A DNA stretch of 64,000 nucleotides from Clostridiales bacterium Firm_08 (GTDB lineage Bacteria > Bacillota > Clostridia > Oscillospirales > QAKW01): the NCBI GenBank assembly GCA_001604045.1, contig LVAN01000009.1, positions 1 through 64,000 on the forward strand. The letters run 5' to 3'. Shown here in pieces: positions 2,510-59,184 of this stretch. Every line of letters starts with the position of its first letter. The stretch's first letter is position 1. The translations under genes were made by a program, and so were the position numbers. The notes beneath the pieces were generated by a model that saw only the letters and a list, made by a program, of their open reading frames with translations, had not been told where the DNA came from and ran no database searches.

Positions 2510-3688
2510 TCATTTCGAAAGATTTTTCTTTATCATCGGCACCAGCGGGAAAATGGAGATGACAGATATTGCCGCCCAGGACAGGAACATCGGCGTATAT
2601 CCCGCCACGGAAACGGTATAACCGTATACCGCCGAGCCGATGCCCGCGCCCATATAGGACACGAAATCCATCACACCGCTGACCGACGCGACGCGGTCTG
2701 TCGCGGCGTAACTCATCGGCAGGATGCTGAGGAAGGTGGCGTTGATCATACTGGTGAACGCGTATACAAGACTCATGCACGCCACGGCGATGATGGGCAC
2801 GCCTGCGCCGAACACCAGCGGCAGACAGGCAAGCGCGCACCCGCCGAACGCGGCGGCGGTGATCACGTATTCACGGTATCCCGAGATCTTATAGAGCAGC
2901 GGGTAGACCAGCCGTCCGCCCAGCCCCACCAGCGGCACGAGCAGAACGTAATACGTCGAACTTCTGAGATCCAGCCCGAAACGATCGACGACGAACGCCG
3001 CCATCCAGAAACTGACGTTGTCTTTCATTACGCCGTGCAGCAGCGCGGGCAGCAGTACCCGGCGGATCTGCGCGTCGCGGAACAGTTCCCGTATTTGTCC
3101 GTTTTGTTTGGTCTCCTTTGGCGCGGGGCAGGCACCGCGCGTTTTCCACAGTACGAGCAGCGCGAAAAAGAACGTGATACATCCCGGAACGATGAAGGCG
3201 TATGTAAGTCCCGCCGCGGAGATCAGCCATCCGTTGATAAGAATGCCGATAACACTGCCCGCCGCCACGGCGGAGGACAGCAGAGAGGCGCGTTTTTTGG
3301 CGGTCTCACCGTCATAGACGGCGGAAAACATCCGCAAAAGGGATCCCCACAGCATCGACTGGCCAAACGCTCCCGTGCCCCACAGCACAGCCATCGCGGC
3401 AAAGGGCGGGAAAAAACTGAACGCGATGTTGGAAATGCCCACCGTCACAAGTCCTGTCACTACCATCTGCCAGGGCGGACGTTTGTCACTGACAGGGCCG
3501 GCCAGCAGCCGCCCCAGCGCGTAGACCACCGAAAAAATACCGGCAAGCCAGCCGAGCTGTACGGCGTCCGCGATACCCGCGTCCTGAAAGGACTTGTTCG
3601 CCATCGTCAAATTCAGTCTCGCGATATATAAAGAAGTATGTGAAAGATAGCATAGGATGAAAATGACCCACGCCTTTTCCCGTTTCAT
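2510..3688 (-). CDS. MFS transporter, organophosphate/OPA-like
   Basis: A polytopic protein of about 392 residues with roughly 12 hydrophobic segments. Its start resembles the glycerol-3-phosphate/hexose-phosphate branch (YIARLNL near the first helix, GPVSDKRPP in the first cytoplasmic loop). ATG at 3688 is chosen because GGGGGAG precedes it by 5 nt; an upstream GTG has no site. It is the fourth gene of the Leu T-box transcription unit, 26 bp after the amidohydrolase. By context it could import a carboxylate or ester precursor used by the neighbouring acyl-CoA synthetases, but the family alone does not define a substrate. Confidence 0.8.
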   Translation of the reverse strand: MKREKAWVIFILCYLSHTSLYIARLNLTMANKSFQDAGIADAVQLGWLAGIFSVVYALGRLLAGPVSDKRPPWQMVVTGLVTVGISNIAFSFFPPFAAMAVLWGTGAFGQSMLWGSLLRMFSAVYDGETAKKRASLLSSAVAAGSVIGILINGWLISAAGLTYAFIVPGCITFFFALLVLWKTRGACPAPKETKQNGQIRELFRDAQIRRVLLPALLHGVMKDNVSFWMAAFVVDRFGLDLRSSTYYVLLVPLVGLGGRLVYPLLYKISGYREYVITAAAFGGCALACLPLVFGAGVPIIAVACMSLVYAFTSMINATFLSILPMSYAATDRVASVSGVMDFVSYMGAGIGSAVYGYTVSVAGYTPMFLSWAAISVISIFPLVPMIKKNLSK

Positions 3689-3714
3689 TCCGTCTCCCCC
3701 GATCACGGCGTTTT

Positions 3715-4521
3715 TTATTTAAATCCGAATACCTTTTTCGCGTTTTCCGACAGGATGATCCGGCGTTCATCGTCGGTCAGCGGGATCCGCCAAAAGGTGT
3801 CCAGTTCAGTGTTCGGCTTCCACATCGGGAAATCGGTGCCGAACAGTACCCGCTCCGCGCCGTACGCTTTGATAAGCTCTGTCGCGACGTCCGTCGAGAT
3901 CATATAAAAACTTGACGAACAGTCCACATAAAGATTGGGTTCGCCCGCGAGTTGTTCCCATGCCGTTTCCCACAGCGACCAGCCGCCGAAGTGGGCGCCG
4001 ACAAAGGTAACGTCCCGGTACTTGCGGAGCATGGGGAGCAGGCGGTCGGGATTGGAATTGTCGTACCGCTTGTCGCCGGTGTGCATCAAAAGGGGCAGGC
4101 CGTTTTCCGCGCACAACTCATAAATGCGCTGACAGCGCGGGTCGTCCACTTTGAAATCCTGAATGTCGGGGTGGAGTTTCACGCCTTTCAGTCCCAGCGC
4201 GATCAGGTCTTTGACGTCCGCCGCCTGATCCTCACTGTCGGGATGGAGCGTGCCGAGTCCTATAAAACGTCCGCCGCTTTGCTCGACGCTCTGCGCGATG
4301 AAGCGGTTGATGCTCGCCACCTGTTTGGGCGTGGTGGCGACGCTTTGCACAACGCAGCGGTCAACGCCCGCCTCGTCGCTCTGCTTCAGCAGATCCGCCG
4401 CCGTGCCGACGCACGCCGCGACGGTGCCGTAAAAGTGATCCGTGCCCGCCACCGCGCGGGTGACGATCTTTTCGGGATAGATATGACAATGCGCGTCGAT
4501 GACCTCAAGTCCGTTTCTCAT
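3715..4521 (-). CDS. Amidohydrolase-2 family protein
   Basis: A TIM-barrel metal hydrolase or decarboxylase of the amidohydrolase-related (ACMSD-like) family, 268 residues. The metal motifs are visible: DAHCHIYPE at residues 9-17 (HxH), GVKLHPD, LLMHTGD, VGAHFGG, and FGTDFPMW near the C-terminus (metal Asp). Its ATG overlaps the TGA of the preceding synthetase gene (ATGA), which implies translational coupling in the Leu T-box operon. The substrate is unknown. Members act on small acids, lactones or anilides, so a role in freeing a carboxylic acid for the synthetase next door is a guess. Confidence 0.85.
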   Translation of the reverse strand: MRNGLEVIDAHCHIYPEKIVTRAVAGTDHFYGTVAACVGTAADLLKQSDEAGVDRCVVQSVATTPKQVASINRFIAQSVEQSGGRFIGLGTLHPDSEDQAADVKDLIALGLKGVKLHPDIQDFKVDDPRCQRIYELCAENGLPLLMHTGDKRYDNSNPDRLLPMLRKYRDVTFVGAHFGGWSLWETAWEQLAGEPNLYVDCSSSFYMISTDVATELIKAYGAERVLFGTDFPMWKPNTELDTFWRIPLTDDERRIILSENAKKVFGFK

Positions 4522-7028
4522 GCCGTTACCACCTTATCCGCTTTGTGCAGGCCGAGTTTTTCGACGGCGTCTTTCCGCATTTGATATTTGAGGATCTTGC
4601 CCGCCGCGTTCATCGGGAAACTCTTTACGAAATCGACGTAGCGGGGGACCTTGTGCCGTGCCATATGGTCGCCGATATACTGTTTCATCTCATCCTCGGT
4701 CATCGTCTCGCCTTCTTTGAGGATGATGCACGCCATAATTTCCTCGCCGTACTGTTCGTCCGGCACGCCGATGACCTGCACGTCGCTGACTTTGGGGTGG
4801 GTGTAGATGAACTCCTCGATCTCCTTGGGGTAAATATTCTCGCCGCCGCGGATGATCATATCCTTGAGCCGCCCGGTGATCCGGTAGTTGCCCTCTTTGG
4901 TGCGGCAGGCGAGGTCGCCGGTGTGCAGCCAGCCGTCCGCGTCGATGGCGGCGGCGGTGGCTTTGGGCATTTTGTAGTACCCTTTCATAATATTATACCC
5001 GCGCGCGACGAACTCTCCCGTCACTTCGTCCGGGCAGTCTTTGCCGGTCTCGGGATCGACGATCTTACATTCGATCTCCGGCATCGCCCGGCCGACGGTG
5101 GCGACCCGCACTTCCAGCGGATCGTCGGTGGAACTCATGGTGCATCCCGGCGACGCCTCGGTCTGGCCGTAGACGATGACGATCTCTTTCATATTCATCT
5201 TGTCCACGACGTCCCGCATCGCGGAGATGGGGCAGGGGCTGCCCGCCATGATGCCGGTCCGCATATAGGAGAAATCGGTCTTGGGGAAATCCGGATGTTC
5301 CAGCAGCGCGATAAACATGGTCGGCACGCCGTGGAACGCCGTGATATGCTCGTTATGGATGCAGGACAGCGCCGGTTTGGGGGAGAAATAGGGCAGGGGG
5401 AGCAGGGTGGCGCCGTGCGTCATAGAGGCGGTCATCGCCAGCACCATACCGAAACAGTGGAACATCGGCACCTGGATCATCATACGGTCGGCGGTGGACA
5501 GATCCATCCGGTCGCCGATGCACTTGCCGTTATTGACGATGTTGTAGTGGGTGAGCATAACGCCTTTGGGAAATCCCGTCGTGCCGGAGGTGTACTGCAT
5601 ATTGCAGACGTCGTCTTTATCGACGGTCGCCGCGATACGGCGGACTTCCTCCACCGGCACCTGCGACGAACGCTCGATGGCCTCCTCCCAGGTCAGGCAC
5701 CCTTTCTGACGGAAGCCGACGGTAATGACGTTGCGCAGGAAAGGCAGACGTCGGCTGTGAAGCGGCCGGCCCGGTTTGGTGTTTTCAAGTTCGGGGCAGA
5801 GTTCAGCGACGATCTTGCCGTAATGGTTGTCTTTGGCGCCCTCGGTCAGCACCAGGGTATGGGTGTCCGACTGTTTGAGCAGATACTCCGCCTCGTGGAT
5901 CTTGTAGGCGGTGTTGACGGTCACCAGCACCGCGCCGATCTTGGTGGTCGCCCAGAAGGCGATATACCACTGCGGAACGTTGGACGCCCACACCGCGACG
6001 TGATGCCCCGGCCGCACGCCCAGCGCGAGCAGGGAACGGGCGAAGGTGTCCACGTCATCCCGAAACTCGCTGTACGTGCGGGTGTAGTCCAGCGAGGTGT
6101 ATTTGAACGCGTATTGGTCAGGAAATTCCTCCACCATACGATCCAGCACCTGCGGGAAGGTCTCGTCGATGAGCAGGTCTTTTTTCCAGACGTACTGCCC
6201 AGTGTGACGGTTGTTGTAATAGAGGGTCTTTTTGTGGCGGGAGGTATCGCCGAACTGCTTCATAAAGCCCGTAAACTGCGCGAGGATCAGCTCCATGTCG
6301 TCAAGTTCGGGACACCAGGAGGGATCCCACACCAGCGACAGGAACCCGTCGTAGTTGACGGAACGAAGCGCCAGCATGATATCGCCGACCGGCAGGTCGC
6401 CCTCGCCGAGCAGGCGAAAAGAAATGCCGTCCTCCGTTTTGACGCCGTCGTTCAGCTGAACGTGACGGACATAGGCGCCGAGGTTTTTGATGACCTCCTC
6501 CGGCTCCTCGCCCCGCTCGAAATAGGCGGCGGTGGTCTGCCACAGCGCGCCGACGTTATCGCAGGCGAAACGCTCCAACATCGTCCGAAGCACCGCTGTG
6601 TCGGCGAACGCGCCGGACGTTTCGATCAGCAGAACGACGCCTTTTTCCTCGGCGTCGGGCAAAACGCTCTCGATCAGCGCCGCCGTCCGATCAGCGGCGC
6701 CATCCGCGGCAAATGCCCGCAGACGGATATTGGGGATGTGGAGGTTGGAGGCGATCTCCAGACAGCGGAGCGTCTCCTCCCTCGCCTCATTTTCGTCACC
6801 CGCGGCGTCCGCTACGACGTCGATACAGGGCAGAGAGAGTTTCTGCTCATAGAGCTTGCGCAGCGTCGCCGCGGCGGCGTAGTCATGGAACGCGCCGTCC
6901 TTGGCGGTGAAAAGCGGGTTTTTGATGTTGTGCAGTTCAATGCCCTGCATTTTGAGATCCCGCGCCGCGGCGCAGAACTGCTCAAAGGTCCGGCCGTGCC
7001 AGCCTTTGGTGGAAAAGGAGAGTTTCAC
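4518..7028 (-). CDS. TIM-barrel (sugar-phosphate isomerase-like) / acyl-CoA synthetase fusion
   Basis: An 836-residue two-part protein. Residues 1 to about 260 match the xylose-isomerase-like TIM-barrel superfamily (start KLSFSTKGW, then GIELHNI and LLIETSG). Residues about 288-836 are a complete AMP-forming acyl-CoA synthetase: the AMP motif YTSGTTGFPKG, YGQTEASP, GWLHTGDLA, GRLKDMIIRGGENIYP, and the catalytic lysine in AAGKILKYQ. The start is GTG at 7028, with GGAGG at 8 nt inside the end of the preceding gene. It sits second in the Leu T-box operon. In the scheme proposed here it would activate isovalerate (3-methylbutyrate) to its CoA ester for carboxylation to the leucine 2-oxoacid. The barrel's job is unknown. 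Confidence 0.85.
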   Translation of the reverse strand: MKLSFSTKGWHGRTFEQFCAAARDLKMQGIELHNIKNPLFTAKDGAFHDYAAAATLRKLYEQKLSLPCIDVVADAAGDENEAREETLRCLEIASNLHIPNIRLRAFAADGAADRTAALIESVLPDAEEKGVVLLIETSGAFADTAVLRTMLERFACDNVGALWQTTAAYFERGEEPEEVIKNLGAYVRHVQLNDGVKTEDGISFRLLGEGDLPVGDIMLALRSVNYDGFLSLVWDPSWCPELDDMELILAQFTGFMKQFGDTSRHKKTLYYNNRHTGQYVWKKDLLIDETFPQVLDRMVEEFPDQYAFKYTSLDYTRTYSEFRDDVDTFARSLLALGVRPGHHVAVWASNVPQWYIAFWATTKIGAVLVTVNTAYKIHEAEYLLKQSDTHTLVLTEGAKDNHYGKIVAELCPELENTKPGRPLHSRRLPFLRNVITVGFRQKGCLTWEEAIERSSQVPVEEVRRIAATVDKDDVCNMQYTSGTTGFPKGVMLTHYNIVNNGKCIGDRMDLSTADRMMIQVPMFHCFGMVLAMTASMTHGATLLPLPYFSPKPALSCIHNEHITAFHGVPTMFIALLEHPDFPKTDFSYMRTGIMAGSPCPISAMRDVVDKMNMKEIVIVYGQTEASPGCTMSSTDDPLEVRVATVGRAMPEIECKIVDPETGKDCPDEVTGEFVARGYNIMKGYYKMPKATAAAIDADGWLHTGDLACRTKEGNYRITGRLKDMIIRGGENIYPKEIEEFIYTHPKVSDVQVIGVPDEQYGEEIMACIILKEGETMTEDEMKQYIGDHMARHKVPRYVDFVKSFPMNAAGKILKYQMRKDAVEKLGLHKADKVVTA

Positions 7029-7031
7029 TTG

Positions 7032-8408
7032 TTATTCCTCCTCGTAAACGATTTTGTTGACAGCATTGAGATACGCGCGGATGGACGCGCCGAGGATATC
7101 GGTGGAGATACCGCTTCCCGAATAAAGCTTGCCGTCGGAACGGAGTTTGACGACGGCGTTGCCGACGGAATCCTTGCCCTCAGTGACCGCCTGGATCTGA
7201 AAATCGTCCAGCTCGAAATGATGTCCGATGATCTGCTCGATGGCGAGGAACGCCGCGTCCACCGGACCGTCGCCCAGGGCTACGCCCTGTAAGGTCTTGC
7301 CGGCTTTTTCCAGCGTGATCTGCGCGCTGGCGGTAACGACGTTGCCGCTGTTGATGACGTAACTGATGAGTTTATAGGTGGCGGGTACCTGCAGGGCGGA
7401 ACTCGCGACGATGGCGTCCAGTTCCTTGGCGCCCACCGTCTTTTTGACGGCGACGCGCTGGAACTCCTCGTAGACTCTCGCGCTGTCCTCCTCCGAGAGG
7501 TCATAGCCGAGCTTCGCCGCCGCCGCTTCCACGGCGGCGCGGTCGTCGTTGCGATCGAGTTTCAGGTCGTCCTCGCCGTTTCTTTCGATGGGAGAGGCCT
7601 CTTTTTCCCCGCGGGACGTGTCGGAGATCCAGCGGATCTGCCGCGCGGTGCGGTGGAGTTCGGTATACCGCAGTAAAGTGGTTACGGCAAGATGCTCGCC
7701 CCTGGCCTGCAGCAGTCCCGCGAAAGTCTCCAACGGTGTGATATCGCCGTCCACGGCGGTCTTGACCGCCGCCGCGCCGTTTTTGGCGGCGAGGACCGCC
7801 GCGGCGCAGGCGCATCCGTAGCGGTCGCCGCAAAGGACTCCCAGCGGCGCGCCGCAGCTCTCAGCGAGCTCTTTGGTAAACGCGGCGAACTCATCGGGCG
7901 GCAGGATCGCCTTGTCGTCGCATACGGTGACAAACTTCGCGCCTGCCGTAACGGCGGCTTTGATCGCCTCTTTCAGAAAGTCCGGCTCGGCGCTGCCGGC
8001 GTCAACGGCGCAAAACTCAACGTCGATACCCGTCGCCGCGGCCGCGGCAACGGTTTTCGCGATGTATTCGAGCATTTTGGGCGGTTTTTTGTGGCACTGG
8101 TATTCCATACAGGCGGGGGAGACGGGCAACTCGACCCGAAGCCGCGCTTTCGCCGCGTTTTGCAGAGCTTCCGCCGCGAGTTTCACGCCCGCTTCGCTGT
8201 TCGCCGCGACGGACAGCGCGCTTTCCTTGACAAAAGACGCCGTCGTCTTGACAAGCAATGTGTCGGCGCGCTCGTCTTTGATCTCCGGCAGTTCAATGAC
8301 GTCGACGCGGAGTTGTTCAAGACGTCTCGCGATCTCCAGCTTTTCCTTGAAATTGTAGGCGCCGCTCTCACGGCAGAGCGTTCGATCGGCAATGTTGATC
8401 TGTTTCAT
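7032..8408 (-). CDS. Isopropylmalate/homocitrate synthase-like protein with altered active site
   Basis: 458 residues, with the fold order of LeuA-type synthases: an N-terminal HMGL-like barrel (1 to about 270), a linker, and a C-terminal LeuA allosteric domain (about 330-455, with LGDGPVDAAF and SVGNAVVKL). The usual DTTLRDGEQ at the start of the barrel reads DRTLCRESG, and the metal-binding HxHND segment is replaced by LCGDRYG. The catalytic Arg and both metal histidines therefore appear lost, while the leucine-sensing domain looks intact. It is the first gene behind the Leu T-box. It may have a different reaction or be a regulatory pseudo-enzyme; ordinary 2-isopropylmalate synthase activity is doubtful. 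Confidence 0.8.
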   Translation of the reverse strand: MKQINIADRTLCRESGAYNFKEKLEIARRLEQLRVDVIELPEIKDERADTLLVKTTASFVKESALSVAANSEAGVKLAAEALQNAAKARLRVELPVSPACMEYQCHKKPPKMLEYIAKTVAAAAATGIDVEFCAVDAGSAEPDFLKEAIKAAVTAGAKFVTVCDDKAILPPDEFAAFTKELAESCGAPLGVLCGDRYGCACAAAVLAAKNGAAAVKTAVDGDITPLETFAGLLQARGEHLAVTTLLRYTELHRTARQIRWISDTSRGEKEASPIERNGEDDLKLDRNDDRAAVEAAAAKLGYDLSEEDSARVYEEFQRVAVKKTVGAKELDAIVASSALQVPATYKLISYVINSGNVVTASAQITLEKAGKTLQGVALGDGPVDAAFLAIEQIIGHHFELDDFQIQAVTEGKDSVGNAVVKLRSDGKLYSGSGISTDILGASIRAYLNAVNKIVYEEE

Positions 8409-8430: not shown

Positions 8431-8702
8431 AAAAAACCCTGAAAATGACATTGTCATTTTCAGGGACGAAAAATTCCGCGGTACCACCCTGCTTACCGCT
8501 ATTATAAGCGGTCTGCTCTGTAAGGCTCCAGCAAGCCTTTTGCCATGATAACGGGGCAAACCGGGATGTCCTACTTGGTTCAGAGATCCTGCTCCGGAAT
8601 GAGACTTCTCCGCTTAACCGTGCTGCCTCACACCATCCGGTAGCTCTCTGTAACGGTTTCGGAAACGGAAAATAGTTCCATCAACGCATTTTCAAACGAT
8701 TT
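8431..8702 (-). promoter_or_regulatory. T-box riboswitch, predicted leucine specifier (CTC)
   Basis: The minus strand contains the diagnostic T-box sequence AGGGTGGTACCGCGG (8476-8490). Upstream are the stem I motifs AGAGAG and GGATGGTGTGAG. The intrinsic terminator lies at 8437-8465 (14-bp arms, then a U run). Taking the codon 6 nt before the conserved GAGC gives CTC at 8601-8603, followed by A, as in known leucine leaders. Uncharged tRNA-Leu would favour the antiterminator and turn on the downstream LeuA-like/synthetase operon. The T-box call is near certain; the specifier is hand-read. Confidence 0.9.
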
Positions 8703-8838: not shown

Positions 8839-9900
8839 TCAGATCTCGACGGTCCAGCCGAACGGGTCGGGGGTCTTGCCCCACTGGATACCGGTCAGTG
8901 TGTCGTACAGGTGCTGGGTGACAGGCCCGATCTTACCGCCGCAGACGGTAAAGACCTGATCCTTATAGCACAGCTCGCCGATGGGGGAGACGACGGCGGC
9001 GGTGCCGCAGCCCCACGCTTCCTCCAGCGTGCCGTTTTCCATCGCTTTTTCAAGTTCATCAACGCTCAGCAGGCGCTCGGAGACGGTGTAGCCTTCTTTT
9101 TTGAGGATCTCGATGCAGGACTTGCGGGTGATGCCGGGCAGGATGGAGCCGGTGAGTTTCGGAGTGACGATCTCGCCGCTGATTTTGAACATGACGTTCA
9201 TCGCGCCGACTTCCTCGATGTATTTACGCTCAACGCCGTCCAGCCAGAGCACCTGGGAATAACCCTTCTGCTCGGCGCGTTCGCCGGCACGGTTGCTCGC
9301 GGCGTAGTTGCCGCCGCATTTGGCGTAGCCCGTGCCGCCTCTGACGGCGCGGACGTCCTCGTCCTCGATCATGATGCGCACCGGGTTGATGCCTTCCTTG
9401 TAGTAGCTTCCCACCGGGGAGGCGATGATGAGGAACGTCGCGTTATGCACGGCGTGCACGCCCAGTGTCTCATCGTTGCCGAACATAAAGGGACGCAGGT
9501 AGAGCGAGGTGCCGGGCGCGGAGGGCGTCCAGTCCTGCTCGACGGAGACGAAGGTTTTGAGGATCTCGAAGGCGTCCTCCTCCGGGATCTGCGGCAGGCA
9601 GAGGCGCTCCGCGGAGTTGTTCATCCGGCGGATGTTCTCCATCGGGCGGAACAGTTGCACTTTGCCGTCGTCGCGGCGGTAGGCTTTGAGTCCCTCAAAG
9701 ATCTCCGAGCCGTAATGCAGTACCGTGCTGGCGGGGTGGATGCTCAGTCTTTCAAAGGGAACGATGCGGGCGTCGTGCCAGCCCTGCTCACGGTTGAAGT
9801 CCATCACGAACATATGATCGGTAAAGATCCTGCCGAAACCGAGGGTGGAGGGATCCGGCTTTGCCGCGGGGGCCGCGGTCTTTGTGATCTTGATATCCAT
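8839..9900 (-). CDS. ilvE: Branched-chain amino acid aminotransferase
   Basis: A PLP-dependent class IV aminotransferase that interconverts Val, Leu and Ile with their 2-oxoacids, using glutamate. It has 353 residues, the length of the BCAT group. It shows YGSEIFEGLKAYR near residue 62, the PLP-site segment YAKCGGNYAAS, and GSILPGITRKS. The start is ATG at 9900 behind AAGGAG. It is the last gene of the Val T-box unit, 12 bp after the oxidoreductase gamma subunit. Linkage to a 2-oxoacid:ferredoxin oxidoreductase and to acyl-CoA synthetases fits amination of 2-oxoacids made by reductive carboxylation. Confidence 0.95.
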   Translation of the reverse strand: MDIKITKTAAPAAKPDPSTLGFGRIFTDHMFVMDFNREQGWHDARIVPFERLSIHPASTVLHYGSEIFEGLKAYRRDDGKVQLFRPMENIRRMNNSAERLCLPQIPEEDAFEILKTFVSVEQDWTPSAPGTSLYLRPFMFGNDETLGVHAVHNATFLIIASPVGSYYKEGINPVRIMIEDEDVRAVRGGTGYAKCGGNYAASNRAGERAEQKGYSQVLWLDGVERKYIEEVGAMNVMFKISGEIVTPKLTGSILPGITRKSCIEILKKEGYTVSERLLSVDELEKAMENGTLEEAWGCGTAAVVSPIGELCYKDQVFTVCGGKIGPVTQHLYDTLTGIQWGKTPDPFGWTVEI

Positions 9901-9912
9901 ACTGAAAACTCC

Positions 9913-10452
9913 TTACTCTTGATATTCCGCGCCAAGGCGCATCGCTTTGGCGTTGATGTCCATCATATCGGCGTGTTTTGCGGAAATGACCTTTTTGAGC
10001 GCCGCCGCCACGCTGTCATCACCGAAATCGTCCAGCACTTTCAGCACCTTGCCGATGATGATCATATTGGCGAGGTTGCCGAGCCCGTTCTCGCTCGCGA
10101 GTCTTGTCGCGGGAACGTAGTATACGGTGACGTCGGTGCGCTTGACTTTGCGCTCGATAAGGGTGCTGTCCGCGAAAATGATGCCGCCCGGTTCCACCGC
10201 GTCTTCGAAGCGGTCAAGGGAGGGCAGGTTCATCGCGACCAGAACGTCGGGTTTGGAGACGATGGGGGAACCGACCGCGCTGTCGCTGACGATGACGCTG
10301 CAGCTCGCGGTGCCGCCCCGCATCTCAGGGCCGTAGGAGGGAAGCCAGCTGACCTGCTTTCCGTCCGTCAGCCCTTTGTAGGCGATGAATTTGCCGGCAA
10401 ACAGGATGCCCTGTCCGCCAAATCCGGAGAATAGGAATTTCGTCGTGCTCAT
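9913..10452 (-). CDS. 2-oxoacid:ferredoxin oxidoreductase, gamma subunit
   Basis: 179 residues of the pyruvate/ketoisovalerate oxidoreductase catalytic domain (gamma) family, with the typical start FLFSGFGGQGILFAGK. Its ATG overlaps the TGA of the beta subunit gene (ATGA), so the two are translationally coupled. Together with the alpha, beta and delta genes upstream it forms a four-subunit VOR/KOR-type enzyme that reversibly converts an acyl-CoA, CO2 and reduced ferredoxin into a 2-oxoacid and CoA. The neighbouring branched-chain aminotransferase points to branched 2-oxoacids. Confidence 0.93.
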   Translation of the reverse strand: MSTTKFLFSGFGGQGILFAGKFIAYKGLTDGKQVSWLPSYGPEMRGGTASCSVIVSDSAVGSPIVSKPDVLVAMNLPSLDRFEDAVEPGGIIFADSTLIERKVKRTDVTVYYVPATRLASENGLGNLANMIIIGKVLKVLDDFGDDSVAAALKKVISAKHADMMDINAKAMRLGAEYQE

Positions 10453-11207
10453 TTCGCTTCCTCCTTCGCCGCGCTGCGGTCTTTGTATACGCCGAGCGGA
10501 TAGTACGCCAGCATATTCTCTTTCAGCCAGTCGATCGCCTTCTGCGGCGTCATGCCCCAGTTGGTGGGGCAGGTGGAAACGACCTCGATCAGCGAAAAGC
10601 CCTTGCCGTCGATCTGATTTTGGAACGCCTTTTTGATCGCCTTTTTGGCGTTGCGGACGTTTTTAACGTCGGCGACGGTGACCCGCTCAAGATATTCCGG
10701 ACCTTCCAGCTCGGACAGCATTTCGCACACCCGCACGGGATAGCCGCAGAGTTTGGGATCTCTGCCGTAAGGCGAGGTCTGCGTGACCTGACCGGGCAGG
10801 GAAGTGGGCGCCATCTGACCGCCCGTCATACCGTAGATCGCGTTGTTGATGAAAATGACGGTGATATTCTCATTGCGCGCCGCGGCGTGCACCGTCTCTG
10901 CCATACCGATGGAGGCGAGGTCGCCGTCACCCTGATAGGTGAAAACGATGTGGTTTTCGGGATCGGCGCGCTTGACGCCGGTCGCGACGGCGGGGGCTCT
11001 GCCGTGCGCCGCCTCGATCATATCACAGTTGAAATAATTGTACGCCATGACCGAGCAGCCGACCGGCGCGATGCCGATGGTCTTGCCCTCGATGCCGAGC
11101 TCGTCGATGACTTCCGCCACCAGCCGGTGCACGATACCGTGCAGACAGCCGGGGCAGTAATGCATCGGGACGTCGGTCAGCGCGTGGGGTTTCTCAAATA
11201 CGACCAT
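10449..11207 (-). CDS. 2-oxoacid:ferredoxin oxidoreductase, beta (TPP-binding) subunit
   Basis: 252 residues. The thiamine diphosphate site is clear: YQGDGDLASIGMAE (GDGD) followed about 30 residues on by NNAIYGMTGGQ. MHYCPGCLHG near the N-terminus is the usual CPGC segment, and PVGCSV follows. The start ATG shares its first base with the last base of the alpha stop codon (TAATG). It works with the alpha, gamma and delta subunits. The beta subunit carries the TPP on which the acyl-CoA and CO2 are joined, or from which CO2 leaves. Confidence 0.94.
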   Translation of the reverse strand: MVVFEKPHALTDVPMHYCPGCLHGIVHRLVAEVIDELGIEGKTIGIAPVGCSVMAYNYFNCDMIEAAHGRAPAVATGVKRADPENHIVFTYQGDGDLASIGMAETVHAAARNENITVIFINNAIYGMTGGQMAPTSLPGQVTQTSPYGRDPKLCGYPVRVCEMLSELEGPEYLERVTVADVKNVRNAKKAIKKAFQNQIDGKGFSLIEVVSTCPTNWGMTPQKAIDWLKENMLAYYPLGVYKDRSAAKEEAK

Positions 11208-12274
11208 TATCTCACACCTCCGTTTTTCGCCGCCGCTTCAATGGCGCGCAGTACCTGTTCGGGATCGGGGATCATACCGCCGGCGCGGTTGCAGAGCGTA
11301 ACGGGACGCTTGCAGCTTGTCGCGAGTTTGACGTCCTCGATCATCTGACCCATGGAAAGTTCCACCGAGATGAATTCTTTGACCTTATCCGCCGCCTTCG
11401 CGAAGGGCGCGACGGGGAAAGGCCACAGCGTGATGGGGCGGATCATACCCGCCTTGATGCCGCGTTTTCTCGCTTCGTCCACCGCGTTTTTGGAAACGCG
11501 GGCGGCAATGCCGAACGCGGTGACGCAGATGTCCGCGTCCTCCATCATATATTCCTCGTACATCGTCTCTTTTTCTTCGACGATCTTATAGCGCTCGTAG
11601 CGGTCGAAGTTGAATTTCTCCAGCTCCTCCGGGATCAGCGAAAGGGAATTGATGATGTTATGCTCTCTTTGCAGTTTGGTGCCGGTGGTCGCCCAGGGCT
11701 TCTCCGGCGCGGGGTTTACTTTGAGATCCAGCGCGACCGGCTCCATCATCTGTCCCATCGTGCCGTCCGCCAGGATCATCGAGGTCATGCGGTAGGTATC
11801 CGCAAGCTCAAATCCTTTGATGGTGAGTTCCGCCATTTCCTGTACCGAGGCGGGCGCCAGCACGATCATGTGATAGTCGCCGTGACCGCCGCCGCGGGTC
11901 GCCTGGAAATAGTCGGACTGGCTGGGCTGAATGCCGCCCAGTCCCGGACCGCCGCGCTGAACGTTAACGATCAGCGACGGGAGATCCGCGCCTGCGAGGT
12001 AGGAAAGTCCCTCGCCTTTCAGCGATACGCCGGGGCTGGAGGACGACGTCATAACGCGCTTACCGGCGCTGGCGACGCCGTAGACCATATTGATCGCGGC
12101 GATCTCACTTTCCGCCTGCAGGAACACCCCGCCGATCTTGGGCATCTTTTTCGCCATATAGGCGGCGATCTCCGTCTGCGGCGTGATGGGGTAGCCGAAA
12201 TAGTGGCGACAGCCCGCGATGATCGCGGCTTCCGCGATGGCTTCGTTGCCTTTCATCAAAACTTTGTCTGCCAT
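11207..12274 (-). CDS. 2-oxoacid:ferredoxin oxidoreductase, alpha subunit (VorB/KorA-like)
   Basis: 355 residues. It opens with KVLMKGNEAIAEAAIIAGCR and GYPITPQTEI, the hallmarks of the alpha subunit of 2-oxoacid:ferredoxin oxidoreductases. It continues with QAESEIAAINMVYGVASAG and SSSSPGVSLKGEGLSYLAG, as in 3-methyl-2-oxobutanoate (VorB) and 2-oxoglutarate (KorA) enzymes. ATG at 12274 is used, with GGAAG upstream and only 5 nt from the delta stop; a longer reading into the delta gene has no support. The operon context favours VOR (branched 2-oxoacids) over KOR. Confidence 0.93.
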   Translation of the reverse strand: MADKVLMKGNEAIAEAAIIAGCRHYFGYPITPQTEIAAYMAKKMPKIGGVFLQAESEIAAINMVYGVASAGKRVMTSSSSPGVSLKGEGLSYLAGADLPSLIVNVQRGGPGLGGIQPSQSDYFQATRGGGHGDYHMIVLAPASVQEMAELTIKGFELADTYRMTSMILADGTMGQMMEPVALDLKVNPAPEKPWATTGTKLQREHNIINSLSLIPEELEKFNFDRYERYKIVEEKETMYEEYMMEDADICVTAFGIAARVSKNAVDEARKRGIKAGMIRPITLWPFPVAPFAKAADKVKEFISVELSMGQMIEDVKLATSCKRPVTLCNRAGGMIPDPEQVLRAIEAAAKNGGVR

Positions 12275-12279
12275 ATCGC

Positions 12280-12483
12280 TCACTTCCTTTCCACCGTGAT
12301 GACGCAGTCGGGGCACATCATGGCGCAGAACGCGCAGGCGATACATTTCTCCTGATCGACGCATTCCGCGGGGTGATGCCCCTTCTTATTGATCTGATCC
12401 GGCGCGACGCGCAGGATCTGCTTGGGGCAGGCGTCCACGCACAGACCGCACCCCTTGCAGTTGTCTTTCTTGAAAGAAACCAT
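12280..12483 (-). CDS. 2-oxoacid:ferredoxin oxidoreductase, delta (2x[4Fe-4S]) subunit
   Basis: A 67-residue ferredoxin-type subunit with two CxxCxxCxxxCP clusters: CKGCGLCVDACP near residue 9 and CIACAFCAMMCP near residue 47. It passes electrons between the TPP centre of the oxidoreductase and free ferredoxin. It is first of the four oxidoreductase genes and sits 16 bp after the ParA-like ATPase gene, with a good GGAGG site upstream. Its size matches VorD/KorD. Confidence 0.94.
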   Translation of the reverse strand: MVSFKKDNCKGCGLCVDACPKQILRVAPDQINKKGHHPAECVDQEKCIACAFCAMMCPDCVITVERK

Positions 12484-12499
12484 ATATAAACCTCCTTTA

Positions 12500-13162
12500 T
12501 TATACAGGCCTTTTCTGTAACGTAAGCGGGAAAAGATTTTCGATCTTTCCCGAAAGCGCGGGCTCGAGCCTCGCTTCCGCCGTCGTCATCGCCAGCGGCA
12601 GACCGGCGGCCTTCGCGACCGCTTCGGCGTATTCCACCGAGGCGAGGATATCCTCCGGCGTCGTGACCGCGCCGAGGTTGGAATTGTTGACAATACCTGT
12701 CAGCGGCAGACCGCCCGCCGCCTCCACTTCCCGCAGGACCTCAAGCGTTGAGGGAACATCGGGAGTAAGGGGACGGTAGCGGTTGATGACCGCCCACATT
12801 TCATAGTTTTGCTCCTCTTTGAGCGCCGGAGCGATCCGGCCGAGCGCCAGCGCGCCGCGGTCGTCGCCGCCGACGTCGATGACGGCGGTAAGATCTTTGT
12901 CGTCCGTTAGTTGGTAAAGCTGCTGAGGAAGCGCCGGGATATCGACGTTGGAACCGGCGTATTCCGATGCGATCAGCGTTATGCCTGCCGCGGAGAGTTC
13001 CGCGGCGCTGTCTTTGGTGCGGAAATAGGGATTTACGATGTCAAGATCCGCGATGGCGACTTTTTTCCGCTCCTTTTTCAGCGCGAGCGCGAGGTTGACC
13101 GCCACGTTGGTCTTGCCGCTGCCGTAATGACCGCAGAGCAGATATACTCTTTTGTCCATCAT
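12500..13162 (-). CDS. ParA/MinD-like P-loop ATPase of the oxidoreductase operon
   Basis: 220 residues. LCGHYGSGKTNVAVNLALAL is a Walker A of the deviant SIMIBI type, VAIADLDIVNPYF carries the adenine/switch Asp, and TAVIDVGGDDRGA is the switch II/Walker B region. Its ATG overlaps the synthetase stop (ATGA), so it is tightly coupled to that gene, and the four oxidoreductase genes follow directly. SIMIBI ATPases next to metalloenzymes often load metal or Fe-S clusters (CooC, Mrp types), so a maturation role for the oxidoreductase is possible but unproven. A chromosome-partitioning role is unlikely given the operon. Confidence 0.8.
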   Translation of the reverse strand: MMDKRVYLLCGHYGSGKTNVAVNLALALKKERKKVAIADLDIVNPYFRTKDSAAELSAAGITLIASEYAGSNVDIPALPQQLYQLTDDKDLTAVIDVGGDDRGALALGRIAPALKEEQNYEMWAVINRYRPLTPDVPSTLEVLREVEAAGGLPLTGIVNNSNLGAVTTPEDILASVEYAEAVAKAAGLPLAMTTAEARLEPALSGKIENLFPLTLQKRPV

Positions 13163-15447
13163 AACTGATTGCGGCGGATCTTGCCGCTGACCGTCTTGGG
13201 CAGGCTGTCGCGGAACACGACGATCCGCGGATATTTATAGGGCGCTGTTTTTTCCTTGACATAAAGCTGGATCTCTTTTTTGAGTTCCTCGGTCGGCTCG
13301 GTGCCCGGCACCAATACAACGCTTGCCTTGACGACCTGACCTCTTACCTCGTCGGGCGCGGCGGAAACGCCGCATTCCAAAACATAGGGGAGTTCCATGA
13401 TAACGCTTTCGATCTCAAAGGGACCGATGCGGTAGCCGGAGGACTTGATGACGTCATCCACCCGGCCGACGTACCAGTAGAAACCGTCCTCGTCCCGCCA
13501 CGCCGAGTCGCCGGTGTGGTAGTAGCCGTCGTGCCAGGTCTCTTTGGTCTTTTCCTCGTCGCCGTAGTAGCCGACCGCCAGTCCGCAGGGGGAACCGTTT
13601 TTGAGATCGATGACGATCTCGCCCGTTTCGCCGTCCGGGACGGGTTTGCCGTCCGCGTCGATCAGCGCGACGTCATAGATCGGCGCGGGCTTGCCCATCG
13701 AGCCGATCTTGTGGGGCGCGCCTACCATGTTACCGATGATCATCGTCGTTTCGGTCTGTCCGAAGCCCTCAAGGATCTGCAGTCCCGTCAGTTTCTCAAA
13801 CTGACGGTAGACCTCGGGGTTGAGCGCTTCGCCCGCCGTCGTCATATGTTTGACGGAGGAAAAATCGTAATGGGAGATATCCTGTTTGATCATCATGCGA
13901 AGCATGGTCGGCGGCGCGCAGAAGGTTGTGATATGATATTTGGCGAACATCGGCATGATCTCATCCGCGTGGAAACGGTCGAAATCGAACACGAAGGTCG
14001 CCGCCTCGCACAGCCACTGACCGTACAGTTTGCCCCACATCGCCTTGGCCCAGCCGGTGTCCGAAATGGTGAAGTGCAGACCTTCGGGGTCGACGTTGTG
14101 CCAATACCGGGCGGTGTGGAAGTGCCCTAAGGGATATTTGTAGTTGTGCGCGGCGATCTTGGGATAGCCGGAGGTGCCGGAGGTGAAGTACATCATCATC
14201 AGGTCGTCGCCGCCCGGCGCGTCCGCGCCGCGTTTGAAATGGGTGCTGTATAAAACGTATTCCTCGTCAAAGGACCGCCAGCCTTCACGGGCGCCGTTGA
14301 CGATGAGTTTGTGTTTGAGCCCCGGGCAGTTGGCCGCCGCGAGATCCACCTGATGGGCGGTGTCGTCGTCCGCGGTGCAGAGGATGGCGGAGACGCCCGC
14401 CGCTTTGAAGCGGTATTCAAAGTCGTGCTCCTGCAGCTGATTGGTTGCCGGGATGGCGATGGCGCCGAGTTTGTTCAGTCCCAAAATGGCGAACCAGAAC
14501 TGATAGTGGCGTTTGAGCACCAGCATCACGCGGTCGCCCCTTTTGATGCCGAGGGATTTGAAATAGTTGGCGCAGCGGGCGGATGCCTTTTTCATATCTG
14601 TAAAGGTAAAACGCTTTTCAGACAGATCCCTGCCGATATACAGCATCGCGAGCTTGCCGGGATCCCGTTCCGCCAGCGCGTCTACCAGATCGAACGCGAA
14701 ATTGAAATGTTCGGTGTTTTTGAATTTGACGGAGAGAGGCGTGCCGTTTTCGTCCTCCTCCACGTCGATGAAATCGTGCCAGATGCGCTTTTCATCGTTG
14801 CGGGGTGCGGGCGCCTGTCCCGTGATCGCCATGGTGGGCGCGAGTTCCGGGATGGGTTCTCCCGTCGGGTTGAGGACGATGGCGTAAAACACGCAGTCTT
14901 TTCCGTTGACCGCGATCATGCCGTGCGGCGTGTCGCTGTCGAAATAGATACTGTCGCCGGGGCCGAGCACCTCGCGGTGGCCGCCGACCTGTACCATTAG
15001 ATTGCCCTCCACGACGATGTCAAGTTCCTGACCGGCGTGGGTGGTAAGCTCGATGTCTTTCTGTTCCGCGCCAGGATCGTAGCAACTGCGCACGTACAGC
15101 GGCTCGGCGATCTTGTTGCGGAAGGCGTAGGCAAGGTTGTAGTAGGTCATCCCGTGGGCGTTGGCGATCTCCTGTCCGCCGCCCGCGCGGGTGACGGTAT
15201 AGGATTTCAGCGTCGGGCTGTGACCCTCGATGATGTCGGTAACGTCCACGCCAAGCGCCAGCGCGCAGCGATAGATGAACGCGAAGTTGAGATCGCTCTC
15301 TCCCGCCTCGCAGCGCAGATATTCCTGCTCGGTGACGTCTGTTTTCTGCGCCATTTCGCCGACGGTAAGTCCTTCGATCTGCCGCAGCTCGCGGATGCGC
15401 GCCGCCATATCCCGGATCCTGAAATCCAGCCCTGTCATCTTGTTCAT
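13159..15447 (-). CDS. HTH-cupin-acyl-CoA synthetase (MACS-like), Val T-box unit
   Basis: About 762 residues in three parts: an XRE-type helix-turn-helix (about 12-68), a small cupin (about 120-190, with THAGQELDIVVEG and SDTPHGMIAV), and a full medium-chain-type AMP-forming acyl-CoA synthetase. The synthetase shows MYFTSGTSGYPK, EGFGQTETTM, YHTGDSAWRDEDGF and the catalytic Lys in TVSGKIRRNQL. ATG at 15447 with AGAGG upstream is chosen; a longer reading enters the T-box. It lies directly behind the Val T-box and is coupled to the ParA-like ATPase and oxidoreductase genes. I infer that it makes isobutyryl-CoA for carboxylation to the valine 2-oxoacid. The HTH suggests it may also bind DNA. Confidence 0.88.
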   Translation of the reverse strand: MNKMTGLDFRIRDMAARIRELRQIEGLTVGEMAQKTDVTEQEYLRCEAGESDLNFAFIYRCALALGVDVTDIIEGHSPTLKSYTVTRAGGGQEIANAHGMTYYNLAYAFRNKIAEPLYVRSCYDPGAEQKDIELTTHAGQELDIVVEGNLMVQVGGHREVLGPGDSIYFDSDTPHGMIAVNGKDCVFYAIVLNPTGEPIPELAPTMAITGQAPAPRNDEKRIWHDFIDVEEDENGTPLSVKFKNTEHFNFAFDLVDALAERDPGKLAMLYIGRDLSEKRFTFTDMKKASARCANYFKSLGIKRGDRVMLVLKRHYQFWFAILGLNKLGAIAIPATNQLQEHDFEYRFKAAGVSAILCTADDDTAHQVDLAAANCPGLKHKLIVNGAREGWRSFDEEYVLYSTHFKRGADAPGGDDLMMMYFTSGTSGYPKIAAHNYKYPLGHFHTARYWHNVDPEGLHFTISDTGWAKAMWGKLYGQWLCEAATFVFDFDRFHADEIMPMFAKYHITTFCAPPTMLRMMIKQDISHYDFSSVKHMTTAGEALNPEVYRQFEKLTGLQILEGFGQTETTMIIGNMVGAPHKIGSMGKPAPIYDVALIDADGKPVPDGETGEIVIDLKNGSPCGLAVGYYGDEEKTKETWHDGYYHTGDSAWRDEDGFYWYVGRVDDVIKSSGYRIGPFEIESVIMELPYVLECGVSAAPDEVRGQVVKASVVLVPGTEPTEELKKEIQLYVKEKTAPYKYPRIVVFRDSLPKTVSGKIRRNQL

Positions 15448-15483
15448 TGCTTTGTACCTCTTGTCCTTTCCGGGACAGTTTGT

Positions 15484-15765
15484 AAAAAAACACCCGTCCC
15501 AAAGCCTGAAATACTTTGAGACGAGTGTGTCATAAAACTTCACCCGCGGTACCACTCAAATTGCGTGAGGATCACGCCGCTCCTTGGGACCTGACAGTCC
15601 CTATGCCTTTACGCAGCAATCACGGGAGGGTTCTACTAACAGCGTTTCCGCCGCGTTCTTCCCTCCGGCTCGGGAGCTACAAACCACGAACGATCACCTG
15701 CCGGCTCACACCGACCGCCGACTCTCTGCGAGGCTCCTGTTCGCGTCCTCTCCTTCATCGCCATT
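15484..15765 (-). promoter_or_regulatory. T-box riboswitch, predicted valine specifier (GTA)
   Basis: On the minus strand a conserved GTGGTACCGCGG lies within 15544-15560. Stem I has the AGAGAGTCGGCGG...GGTGTGAGCC pattern, and an imperfect terminator hairpin (about 15491-15527) is followed by a U run. The codon 6 nt before GAGC is GTA, at 15678-15680, followed by G. It precedes the synthetase/VOR/aminotransferase genes, so valine starvation (uncharged tRNA-Val) should switch the whole unit on. The specifier reading is by eye. Confidence 0.9.
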
Positions 15766-15771
15766 GTAGCC

Positions 15772-15800
15772 ATTATATTTCAAGTTCGGTGAATTGTCAA
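15772..15800 (-). promoter_or_regulatory. Promoter of the Val T-box unit
   Basis: TTGACA (15795-15800) and TATAAT (15772-15777) on the minus strand with a 17-nt spacer. It lies just 8 nt past the stop of the upstream synthetase, so the two paralogues are separate units. Confidence 0.85.
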
Positions 15801-15808
15801 GTGTTTTA

Positions 15809-18076
15809 TTATAATTTATTACGCTGGATCTTTCCGCTGATGGTTTTGGGCAGACTGTCGCGGAACACCACGATGCGCGGGTACTTGTAAGGCGCGGTGT
15901 GTTGTTTTACGTAGTTCTGGATCTCTTTTTTGAGCTCCTCGGTCGGTTCGGCGCCCTTGACCAGCACGACGCTTGCCTTGACGACCTGTCCTCTCACCTC
16001 GTCGGGCGCGGCGGACACGCCGCACTCCAGAACGTAGGGCAGTTCCATGATGACGCTTTCGATCTCGAAAGGCCCGATGCGGTAGCCGGAGGATTTGATG
16101 ACATCGTCCACTCTGCCGACGTACCAGTAGAAACCGTCCTCATCCCGCCACGCGGTGTCGCAGGTGTGATAACAGCCGTCGTGCCAGACCTCTTTTGTTT
16201 TATCTTCCTGTTGATAATATCCGGCAAACAGACCGCAGGGCGGCTTGTCGCCCACCCGCACGATGATCTCGCCCGTCTCGCCGTCCGGCACGGGATTGCC
16301 GTCGGGATCGACGATGTCGACGTCGTACTGCGGGTTGGGACGGCCCATCGAGCCGAGTTTGTGCGGCGCGCCCAGCAGGTTGCCGATGACCATCGTCGTT
16401 TCGGTCTGTCCGAAGCCCTCCATGATCTGAAGTCCCGTCGCTTTCTCAAACTGGCGGTAGACCTCGGGGTTGAGCGCCTCGCCCGCCGTCGTCATATGCT
16501 TGACGGAGGAAAGATCGAAACGGGAGAGATCCTCCTTGATCATCATGCGAAGCATAGTGGGCGGCGCGCAGAAGGTCGTGATCTGATATTTGGCGAACAT
16601 CGGCAGGATATCGTCGGCGTGGAAGCGCTCGAAGTCATAGACGAACACCGCGCCTTCGCACAGCCATTGGCCGTAGAGTTTGCCCCACAGGGCTTTGCCC
16701 CAGCCGGTGTCGGAAATGGTGAAATGCAGACCGTCTTTGGAAACGCCGTGCCAGTACCGGGCGGTGACGTAATGCCCCAGCGCGTAGGTGCAGGGGTGGG
16801 CGGCGATCTTGGGATAGCCGGTCGTGCCGGAGGTAAAGAACATCAGCGCGATGTCACTGCCGCAGGGTGTTTCCTCACTGCGGTAGAAGTGGGCGGAGAA
16901 AAGCGGGAATTCCTCATCGAAGGACCGCCAGCCCTCACGGGTGCCGTTCACGATGATCTTAGTGCGCACGGTGGGGCAGTTTGCCGCCGCGAGGTCCGCC
17001 TGCCCGGCGACGCCGCCGTCGGCGGTGCAGAGGATGGCGGAAACGCCCGCCGAGTTGAAACGGTACTCAAAGTCGTGCTGCTGCAGCTGGTTGGTCGCCG
17101 GGATGGCGATGGCGCCGAGTTTGTGCAGACCCAGGATGGCGAACCAGAACTGATAGTGGCGTTTGAGCACCAGCATGACGCGGTCTCCCTTTTTGATGCC
17201 GAGAGATTTGAAATAGTTGGCGCACTGGTTGGACGCGCGTTTCATATCGTTGAACGTGAAGCGGCGCTCGGTCTTGTCGTTTGAAACATGGATCATCGCC
17301 AGTTTGTCGGGATCTTTTTTGGCGATCCCGTCCACGATGTCAAAGGCGAAGTTGAAGCGTTCCTCGTTTTTGAAACGGATATCGATCAACTCGCCGGTCT
17401 CGTTCACCGTCGGTTCGACGAACTCGTCGCTGACCAGTCCCCGGTCGCCGGAACGCGCCGAGATGACGCTTTCCCGCAGCACGGTCTCCGCCTCCTCCTC
17501 GCCGGGCAGCACCACCGCGACGAACAGGCAGTCCTGACCGTCCACGGCGATCATGCCGTGCGGGGTGGAACTGTTATAATAGATGCTGTCGCCCTCGCTG
17601 AGGTATTCGATGTTGTCGCCGACCTGTACCTTGAGGCGGCCGCTCATCACAAAGTCGAACTCCTGACCGGAGTGCTTGGTGAGGTGGATGGGTTTGTCCT
17701 GAAGTTCGGGACTGAACGCATAGCGCACCCAGTACGGCTCCGCGATCTTATCGCGGAAATGAGGCGCGAGGTTTTTGATGTCGATGCCGTCCTCCCTGGC
17801 GGTAGACTGTCCCTGTCCCTTGCGGGTCACGGTGTAGGAGGACAGGTGAGCGCTTTGTCCCTCCAGAAGGTCGGTAATGCCGATGCCGAACGCGAGCGCA
17901 CACTTATGGATAAAGGTAAAGGGGAAGTCCTTTTCACCCGCCTCGAACGCGGCGTATTCGGCGGGGGAGACCTCCGTCTTTTCCGCCATCTCCGCCTCGG
18001 TGAAACCGGAGATCTCGCGCATTTCACGAATTCGTCCGGCGACCTCTTTCAGTGTTTTTGACGCGACTGTTGCCAT
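15809..18076 (-). CDS. HTH-cupin-acyl-CoA synthetase (MACS-like), Ile T-box unit
   Basis: 755 residues with the same order as its neighbour: XRE helix-turn-helix (about 10-65), cupin (about 115-185, with TKHSGQEFDFVMSG and SSTPHGMIAV), and an AMP-forming acyl-CoA synthetase (about 225-755, with FFTSGTTGYPKIA, EGFGQTETTM and the catalytic Lys in TISGKIQRNKL). ATG at 18076 follows AAGGAGG at 9 nt. The C-terminal 60 or so residues of the AMP-binding part are identical to the paralogue, while the DNA differs at third positions. The HTH and cupin parts differ more. It sits alone behind an Ile T-box; I infer activation of 2-methylbutyrate for isoleucine synthesis. Confidence 0.88.
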   Translation of the reverse strand: MATVASKTLKEVAGRIREMREISGFTEAEMAEKTEVSPAEYAAFEAGEKDFPFTFIHKCALAFGIGITDLLEGQSAHLSSYTVTRKGQGQSTAREDGIDIKNLAPHFRDKIAEPYWVRYAFSPELQDKPIHLTKHSGQEFDFVMSGRLKVQVGDNIEYLSEGDSIYYNSSTPHGMIAVDGQDCLFVAVVLPGEEEAETVLRESVISARSGDRGLVSDEFVEPTVNETGELIDIRFKNEERFNFAFDIVDGIAKKDPDKLAMIHVSNDKTERRFTFNDMKRASNQCANYFKSLGIKKGDRVMLVLKRHYQFWFAILGLHKLGAIAIPATNQLQQHDFEYRFNSAGVSAILCTADGGVAGQADLAAANCPTVRTKIIVNGTREGWRSFDEEFPLFSAHFYRSEETPCGSDIALMFFTSGTTGYPKIAAHPCTYALGHYVTARYWHGVSKDGLHFTISDTGWGKALWGKLYGQWLCEGAVFVYDFERFHADDILPMFAKYQITTFCAPPTMLRMMIKEDLSRFDLSSVKHMTTAGEALNPEVYRQFEKATGLQIMEGFGQTETTMVIGNLLGAPHKLGSMGRPNPQYDVDIVDPDGNPVPDGETGEIIVRVGDKPPCGLFAGYYQQEDKTKEVWHDGCYHTCDTAWRDEDGFYWYVGRVDDVIKSSGYRIGPFEIESVIMELPYVLECGVSAAPDEVRGQVVKASVVLVKGAEPTEELKKEIQNYVKQHTAPYKYPRIVVFRDSLPKTISGKIQRNKL

Positions 18077-58886: not shown

Positions 58887-58915
58887 TTGCAATCGGGGGG
58901 AATATCCTATATAAT
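58887..58915 (+). promoter_or_regulatory. Promoter of the cobalamin-riboswitch operon
   Basis: TTGCAA (58887-58892) and TATAAT (58910-58915) with a 17-nt spacer. Confidence 0.75.
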
Positions 58916-58919
58916 AATA

Positions 58920-59184
58920 CTATATTTCGGTTGTTCCGTCAACCGGGATCACAAAAAAATCACTTTTCCTGCCATGGAAGCGGAGTGAAATTCTCCCACG
59001 AACTCGTCGCCGTGAAACATGAGACGTCCTTTATTATGTCACTGTCCGAACAGGATGGGAAGGCAAGGGACGTTGCCTGAGTGTAAAGTCGAAATACTTG
59101 ACAGGAAAAGGTCGCCCGCAAAGCGTCACGAGTTCTTGATGGTTTTGCAGATCGGAAGAGGTGAGGCAGTACACCTCTTTTTGA
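58920..59184 (+). promoter_or_regulatory. Cobalamin riboswitch with terminator
   Basis: GGAGTGAAATTCTCC followed by CACG...CGCCGTGA (58981-59014) fits the cobalamin core. GTCACTGTCC, then GGATGGGAAGGC (59037-59064), is the strongly conserved CACTG/GGGAAGGC region. A B12-box-like AGTCGAAATACTTGACAGG (about 59087-59105) follows. The expression platform ends in an AGAGGTG...CACCTCTTTTT terminator (about 59157-59183). B12 should turn the downstream genes off. Confidence 0.85.

Follow-up and report, generated by a model that had tools for sequence, protein, structure and literature searches.

A catalytically degenerate isopropylmalate synthase homologue of gut and rumen Clostridia as the probable leucine sensor of leucine synthesis from short branched fatty acids

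Gene content of the locus and its T-box leader

The locus described here lies in a window of 64,000 nucleotides (the whole stretch of Clostridiales bacterium Firm_08 DNA that was analysed) and centres on a gene for a LeuA-like protein at 7032–8408 (−). The protein has 458 amino acids and consists of a degenerate HMGL-like barrel, a linker and an intact LeuA_dimer domain; the ATG start codon of its open reading frame is preceded by AAAGGAGG. The coordinates, strand and motifs that an earlier note had read from the letters agree with the open reading frame, the Pfam matches and our alignment. The gene is followed by a gene for a fusion protein of 836 amino acids (4518–7028, −), in which Pfam recognizes an AP_endonuc_2 barrel (residues 1–265) joined to an AMP-forming acyl-CoA ligase; the ligase motifs are conserved, and no NCBIfam model matched the fusion ligase above its cut-off. 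Next comes an Amidohydro_2 family hydrolase (3715–4521, −; Pfam), which follows the fusion gene in most loci, and then an MFS transporter (2510–3706, −; Pfam), possibly the last gene of the operon and absent from the other loci compared.

A T-box leader RNA at 8459–8693 (−), with the fold and the antiterminator sequence of the class, precedes the LeuA-like gene (Rfam RF00230, 117.4 bits vs. a gathering score of 93). The Rfam alignment places its specifier codon, CUC (Leu), at 8601–8603 (−), and fold and sequence reveal an intrinsic terminator, a hairpin followed by a U run, at 8431–8465 (−). Of the 110 family loci, 95 have a T-box core upstream of the LeuA-like gene. Reading the specifier by hand from the 79 leaders that were parsed gave a leucine codon every time (75 with CUC, three with CUG and one with CUU). 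A valine specifier (GUC) is excluded because the base ahead of CUC varies between U and C, and a serine specifier (UCA) is excluded because the four relatives with CUG or CUU still read leucine, whereas the serine frame gives Trp or Phe. These results bear out the proposal that a leucine T-box heads the operon. In one genome (G005; L005/L019), the T-box before the LeuA-like gene seems to be cut to its antiterminator part (GGGTAGTACC), without Stem I.

Immediately upstream of the T-box lies ilvE, encoding a branched-chain aminotransferase (8839–9900, −; NCBIfam equivalog above cut-off), preceded in turn by genes for the subunits of a 2-oxoacid:ferredoxin oxidoreductase: gamma (9913–10452, −), beta (10449–11207, −), a VorB-type alpha (11207–12364, −; NF005507, 535.9 bits vs. 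a cut-off of 399), and a small two-cluster ferredoxin (12280–12483, −) that, with its two Cys-rich cluster motifs, is the probable delta subunit. Thus, the earlier note's view of the operon as lacking further genes of the leucine pathway holds downstream of the T-box and fails for the region directly upstream, where ilvE and the VorB-type genes lie on the same strand.

Further upstream are two genes for XRE/cupin/AMP-ligase proteins (13159–15555, − and 15809–18076, −). Their best NCBIfam match is MbcS, the methylbutyryl-CoA synthetase of S. aureus (NF047394; 413.8 and 424.4 bits, respectively), which activates 2-methylbutyrate and isobutyrate (PMC10026030); the scores are half of the cut-off of 850, and the two proteins differ from MbcS by their extra XRE and cupin domains. 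The fusion ligase adjoining the LeuA-like protein belongs to a ligase group other than this MbcS-like pair. This arrangement, in which an acyl-CoA ligase carries both a cupin and a regulator-like helix-turn-helix and which occurs twice in a row at 13159–18076, is conserved beside VorB genes: in many loci, the region upstream of the LeuA-like gene holds two XRE/cupin/AMP-ligase genes, an ATPase gene, the 2-oxoacid:ferredoxin oxidoreductase subunit genes and ilvE. Elsewhere in the window, a cobalamin riboswitch was found at 58912–59119 (+; RF00174, 55.5 bits).

Catalytic site and leucine domain of the LeuA-like family

Residues 1–256 of the LeuA-like protein (7641–8408, −) form a degenerate barrel of the isopropylmalate synthase (IPMS) type: Pfam matches HMGL-like at residues 17–256 with 98.5 bits, and the AF2 model (mean pLDDT of 87) predicts an eight-stranded TIM barrel with the IPMS fold. 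The modelled barrel matched 3ewb and 3eeg in the PDB with a target TM of 0.90, and the PDB matches of the model include 3FIG, a leucine-bound LeuA. The C-terminal LeuA_dimer (leucine allosteric) domain spans residues 327–453 (7050–7430, −; PF08502, 1.1e-31, 109.9 bits) and is intact, as had been supposed; it is present in all 45 family members scanned. In domain order, fold, possession of LeuA_dimer and position in the tree, the protein is closest to LeuA (EC 2.3.3.13; PRK00915/TIGR00973 group).

Alignment of the protein with two canonical LeuA sequences from its own taxonomic family, L021 and L022, shows that the active site has been dismantled. The sequence DRTLCRESG (8361–8387, −) replaces DTTLRDGEQ, such that the catalytic Arg is Cys12 and the metal-binding Asp is Arg13 (residue roles from PMC11532901); and LCGDRYG (7815–7835, −) replaces HCHNDLG, such that both metal-ligand His residues are gone (L192 and G194). 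Both replacements had been reported before, as DTTLRDGEQ to DRTLCRESG and VHCHNDLG to VLCGDRYG, and the alignment agrees with them; the loss goes further than was reported, as the GLGERAGN and NAFAHESGIHQHG segments are deleted and SAEDATR has become CAVDAGS, which changes the catalytic Glu to Val.

The loss is shared by the whole family. Among 105 distinct LeuA-like sequences, drawn from gut and rumen Clostridia, all lack the GERAGN segment and all lack the segment bearing the general-base His and its partner Tyr (HESGIHQHG); the catalytic Arg is kept in one of 104 members, the site otherwise being Cys, Ser or another residue; the metal Asp is kept in 14 and lost in 90 of 104; and the two metal His residues of HxHND are found in 0/105 and 2/105 members, no member having both. 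The D-R-E metal and catalytic signature of DRE-TIM metallolyases is therefore missing from the family, and the catalytic loss in the window is neither a one-off nor an assembly error. In the related methylthioalkylmalate synthase (MAMS), for which a mechanism common to IPMS has been proposed, an Asp and two His residues bind the metal; none of three mutants of Arg89 was active, and mutants of Glu227 and His388 were inactive save E227Q and H388N, respectively (PMC11532901). None of the equivalent metal-binding and catalytic positions (Arg, Glu, His and metal ligands) is kept in the window protein. That the LeuA-like family has lost IPMS catalysis is thus well supported by its sequences.

Selection has acted differently on the two domains. 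In close pairs, the barrel has a median dN/dS of ~0.11 and the leucine domain one of 0.06, and the mean pairwise identity within the family is 50% for the barrel and 72% for the leucine domain, whereas the corresponding values for canonical LeuA of the same order (n = 13) are 65% and 46%. Of the positions invariant in canonical LeuA, the LeuA-like family retains 40 of the 147 that lie in the barrel and 14 of the 23 that lie in the leucine domain. The residues of its ligand loops, GDGPxD and G-x-G-x-STDI, hardly vary within the family. The leucine domain is better conserved than the barrel, the reverse of canonical LeuA, indicating that constraint has shifted to the leucine domain.

The barrel has conserved residues of its own: E102 and K108 are invariant and position 106 is His in 99 of 105 members, unlike in canonical LeuA. 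Four Cys residues (C12, C133, C163 and C193) lie at the former active-site strand ends; all four are present in 54 of 105 members, and the set is incomplete in about half of the family, with only the pattern “..CC” in 18 members and none of the four in two. As judged from their positions, residues 12, 133, 163 and 193 could form a metal, iron-sulfur or redox site.

Distribution, the fusion synthetase and leucine supply

A search of the same order found the LeuA-like protein in 65 out of 295 genomes, in which full-length hits fall into two groups separated by a clear gap (at least 505 bits for LeuA-like vs. at most 318 bits for canonical LeuA). A scan of GTDB genomes recovered 80 LeuA-like loci, nearly all from gut or rumen Clostridia, and 398 genomes drawn from the phylum yielded only one additional member, which has its own T-box. 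This phylum genome lies outside the order and carries the LeuA-like/fusion pair together with the T-box (L187; G347:C2), probably through horizontal transfer. In the tree, the 26 LeuA-like members tested form one branch (SH-aLRT of 100%) beside canonical LeuA. An artefact of metagenome assembly is ruled out by orthologues from the same genus and the same family with identical gene order. Two assemblies, G191 and G253, carry the LeuA-like/fusion pair twice; the copies in G253 share one contig and have identical scores.

The fusion gene directly follows the LeuA-like gene in 63 of the 63 genomes of the order in which no contig end intervenes, usually after a gap of 1–5 bases, and likewise in those of the family loci compared that extend far enough. 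The converse does not hold: at least 52 genomes of the order have the fusion without the LeuA-like protein, which rules out the latter as an obligate partner of the synthetase. The solo fusions form a clade apart from the paired ones; among the 13 solo loci inspected, no T-box and no branched-chain amino acid gene was found nearby, and the Glu-Asp-His-Glu (EDHE) metal tetrad of the AP barrel is intact in all 13, whereas it has been lost in 50 of 60 members of the paired clade. This comparison indicates that the LeuA-like protein was added along with leucine control and is not needed by the ligase, and that the AP barrel beside it mostly lost its metal site afterwards.

For their branched-chain amino acids, many Clostridia of the rumen and gut are known to require or draw on branched short-chain acids, and we know of no described control of this synthesis. 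The genes at the locus fit a pathway in which isovalerate, 2-methylbutyrate and isobutyrate are activated, reductively carboxylated and transaminated to yield Leu, Ile and Val. In particular, the VorB-type oxidoreductase, IlvE and the acyl-CoA ligases fit the carboxylation of isovalerate, a route to leucine that a passage of PMC7356843, citing Allison 1962 and 1966, treats as long-established rumen physiology. Our search of the literature found no control mechanism and no leucine-sensing gene described for the route from isovalerate to leucine, and nothing relevant on a dead or pseudo isopropylmalate synthase, the annotation name or the gene set.

Genome content is consistent with such a supply of leucine. 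Canonical LeuA and IlvD are both missing from the window's assembly (86% complete), whose LeuC match is of the aconitase type only; another genome, 99% complete (G002), has no canonical LeuA, no IPM-type LeuC and no IlvD. IlvD occurs in 10 of the 65 genomes that have the LeuA-like protein and in 138 of the 230 that do not (Fisher p of 7e-11, with shared ancestry ignored). Strict exclusivity of the LeuA-like protein and de novo synthesis of branched-chain amino acids is ruled out by the same 10 genomes, G005 among them, which have both; because these genomes keep IlvD, the LeuA-like protein is not a strict replacement. Taken as a whole, the leucine-supply context of the locus is well supported. 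The sole other HMGL-like protein found in the window's assembly, of 477 amino acids, lies beside an aconitase (G000:C41:62724–65798) and is possibly a Re-citrate synthase.

Candidate roles and a proposed mechanism

A lost catalytic site, a leucine domain under selection and adjacency to a synthetase under leucine control together suggest that the LeuA-like protein is probably a leucine sensor regulating leucine synthesis from short branched fatty acids. The earlier note had offered two interpretations, a leucine-sensing regulator of the neighbouring synthetase or a catalyst of some new reaction of a branched acyl group; the clade-wide catalytic loss, the reversal of conservation, the invariant order of the two genes, the leucine T-box and the neighbourhood argue for the first, and the second fares less well. 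In its specific form, in which a catalytically dead IPMS homologue serves as the leucine-sensing regulatory subunit that controls the adjacent synthetase, we regard the regulatory reading as having an even chance of being correct. Counting against it are the 10 genomes that keep IlvD, the solo synthetases, the fusion ligase's failure to pass any NCBIfam cut-off, and the barrel, which is still under selection and whose family-specific conserved residues (E102, H106, K108 and the Cys sites) exceed the needs of a bare scaffold.

Those same residues speak for the main rival reading, in which the barrel has gained a new catalytic activity towards a branched acyl group or an acyl-CoA, carried out by a rebuilt site (the four Cys residues, for example) and regulated by the leucine domain. 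Purifying selection on the barrel is in line with such a reading, and a leucine-regulated enzyme would suit the context of a leucine operon. However, about half of the family lacks the full Cys set, no fresh invariant polar set has taken the place of the metal site, the formerly catalytic positions are variable, and the catalytic segment bearing His and Tyr is deleted; we therefore consider new catalysis unlikely.

It is possible that the control acts on another target, such as VorB or IlvE, because solo fusion synthetases exist without a LeuA-like protein. The LeuA-like protein would then be a leucine-sensing subunit of one of these neighbours or a general switch of the pathway, and VorB, IlvE and the LeuA-like protein are indeed often encoded in one gene row, in some loci with no T-box in between. 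However, adjacency to the fusion gene is invariant, whereas IlvE/KOR genes are located elsewhere in several loci (L066, L077, L090, L092, L100, L143 and L019), and the T-box puts the LeuA-like protein and the fusion in one transcript; regulation of a different neighbour is accordingly also improbable.

Slightly less likely still is a purely structural role, in which the protein would hold the synthetase as a scaffold or assembly factor without sensing leucine and would keep the leucine domain for dimerisation only. LeuA_dimer is also a dimerisation domain, and many family-specific invariant residues lie within it, but the near-invariant GDGPxD and G-x-G-x-STDI loops are not obviously required by dimerisation alone.

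An ordinary LeuA with tolerated substitutions is very improbable: the protein groups with LeuA in the tree and in NCBIfam, where its best models are all bacterial LeuA, but its top score of 254.8 bits is half of the 532 set as the equivalog cut-off, it has lost Arg, Glu, the metal ligands and the segment bearing His and Tyr, and such an enzyme would be of little use in G002, with its lack of canonical LeuA, IPM-type LeuC and IlvD; the catalytic residues and the NCBIfam score rule it out. A decaying pseudogene, which the lost catalytic residues might suggest, is ruled out by open frames of constant length in ~110 loci, a dN/dS far below 1, the spread of the family and the conservation of start codon, T-box and neighbour.

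We propose the following mechanism for a leucine-sensing LeuA-like protein. Isovalerate, which would be the main source of leucine in these bacteria, would be activated to isovaleryl-CoA; the VorB-type ferredoxin oxidoreductase would reductively carboxylate isovaleryl-CoA, and IlvE would transaminate the product to leucine. The LeuA-like protein and the fusion synthetase would be made together, because the T-box would permit readthrough of their operon when leucyl-tRNA is uncharged. Leucine, when plentiful, would bind the LeuA_dimer domain. The dead barrel would be docked on the synthetase, or on its AP_endonuc_2 barrel, and would pass inhibition on, thereby restoring the end-product control once given by IPMS in the normal pathway. 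The steps rest on different kinds of evidence: conservation of the domain suggests that the LeuA-like protein binds leucine; adjacency points to the synthetase as its target; analogy with IPMS argues for inhibition rather than activation; and the T-box and the genomic context suggest isovalerate as the substrate of the fusion ligase. The broader proposal, that the whole clade turned IPMS into a stand-alone leucine sensor exerting feedback control on a different first enzyme, an acyl-CoA synthetase, for making leucine from isovalerate, we advance tentatively, at a little under an even chance.

In methylthioalkylmalate synthase (MAM), catalysis was kept and the leucine domain was lost, the opposite direction to that of the LeuA-like protein, in which catalysis is gone and the leucine domain remains. 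HisZ, a dead paralogue of HisRS, regulates the short form of HisG; like the LeuA-like protein in its putative role, it is a catalytically dead enzyme relative that serves amino-acid biosynthesis as a regulatory subunit, although it differs in fold, amino acid and pathway. MAM, like the LeuA-like family, is an offshoot of IPMS that arose through domain modification (PMC11532901). The reuse of a dead enzyme as an amino-acid sensor would therefore be of a known kind, and what would differ here, by this analogy, is the recruitment of the IPMS family and its deployment in a different pathway.

In conclusion, hits to PF08502/PF00682 in these genomes should not be annotated as isopropylmalate synthase, a misannotation that would lead to a false call of leucine prototrophy in metabolic models. 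If the proposed role is correct, the branched-acid route has a leucine sensor of its own, for which a probable target can be named, and the LeuA-like gene would be a genomic marker for organisms that derive leucine from isovalerate. The family would then exemplify feedback control that moves between pathways after catalytic loss, with end-product control transferred between unrelated biosynthetic routes through the reuse of a dead enzyme.
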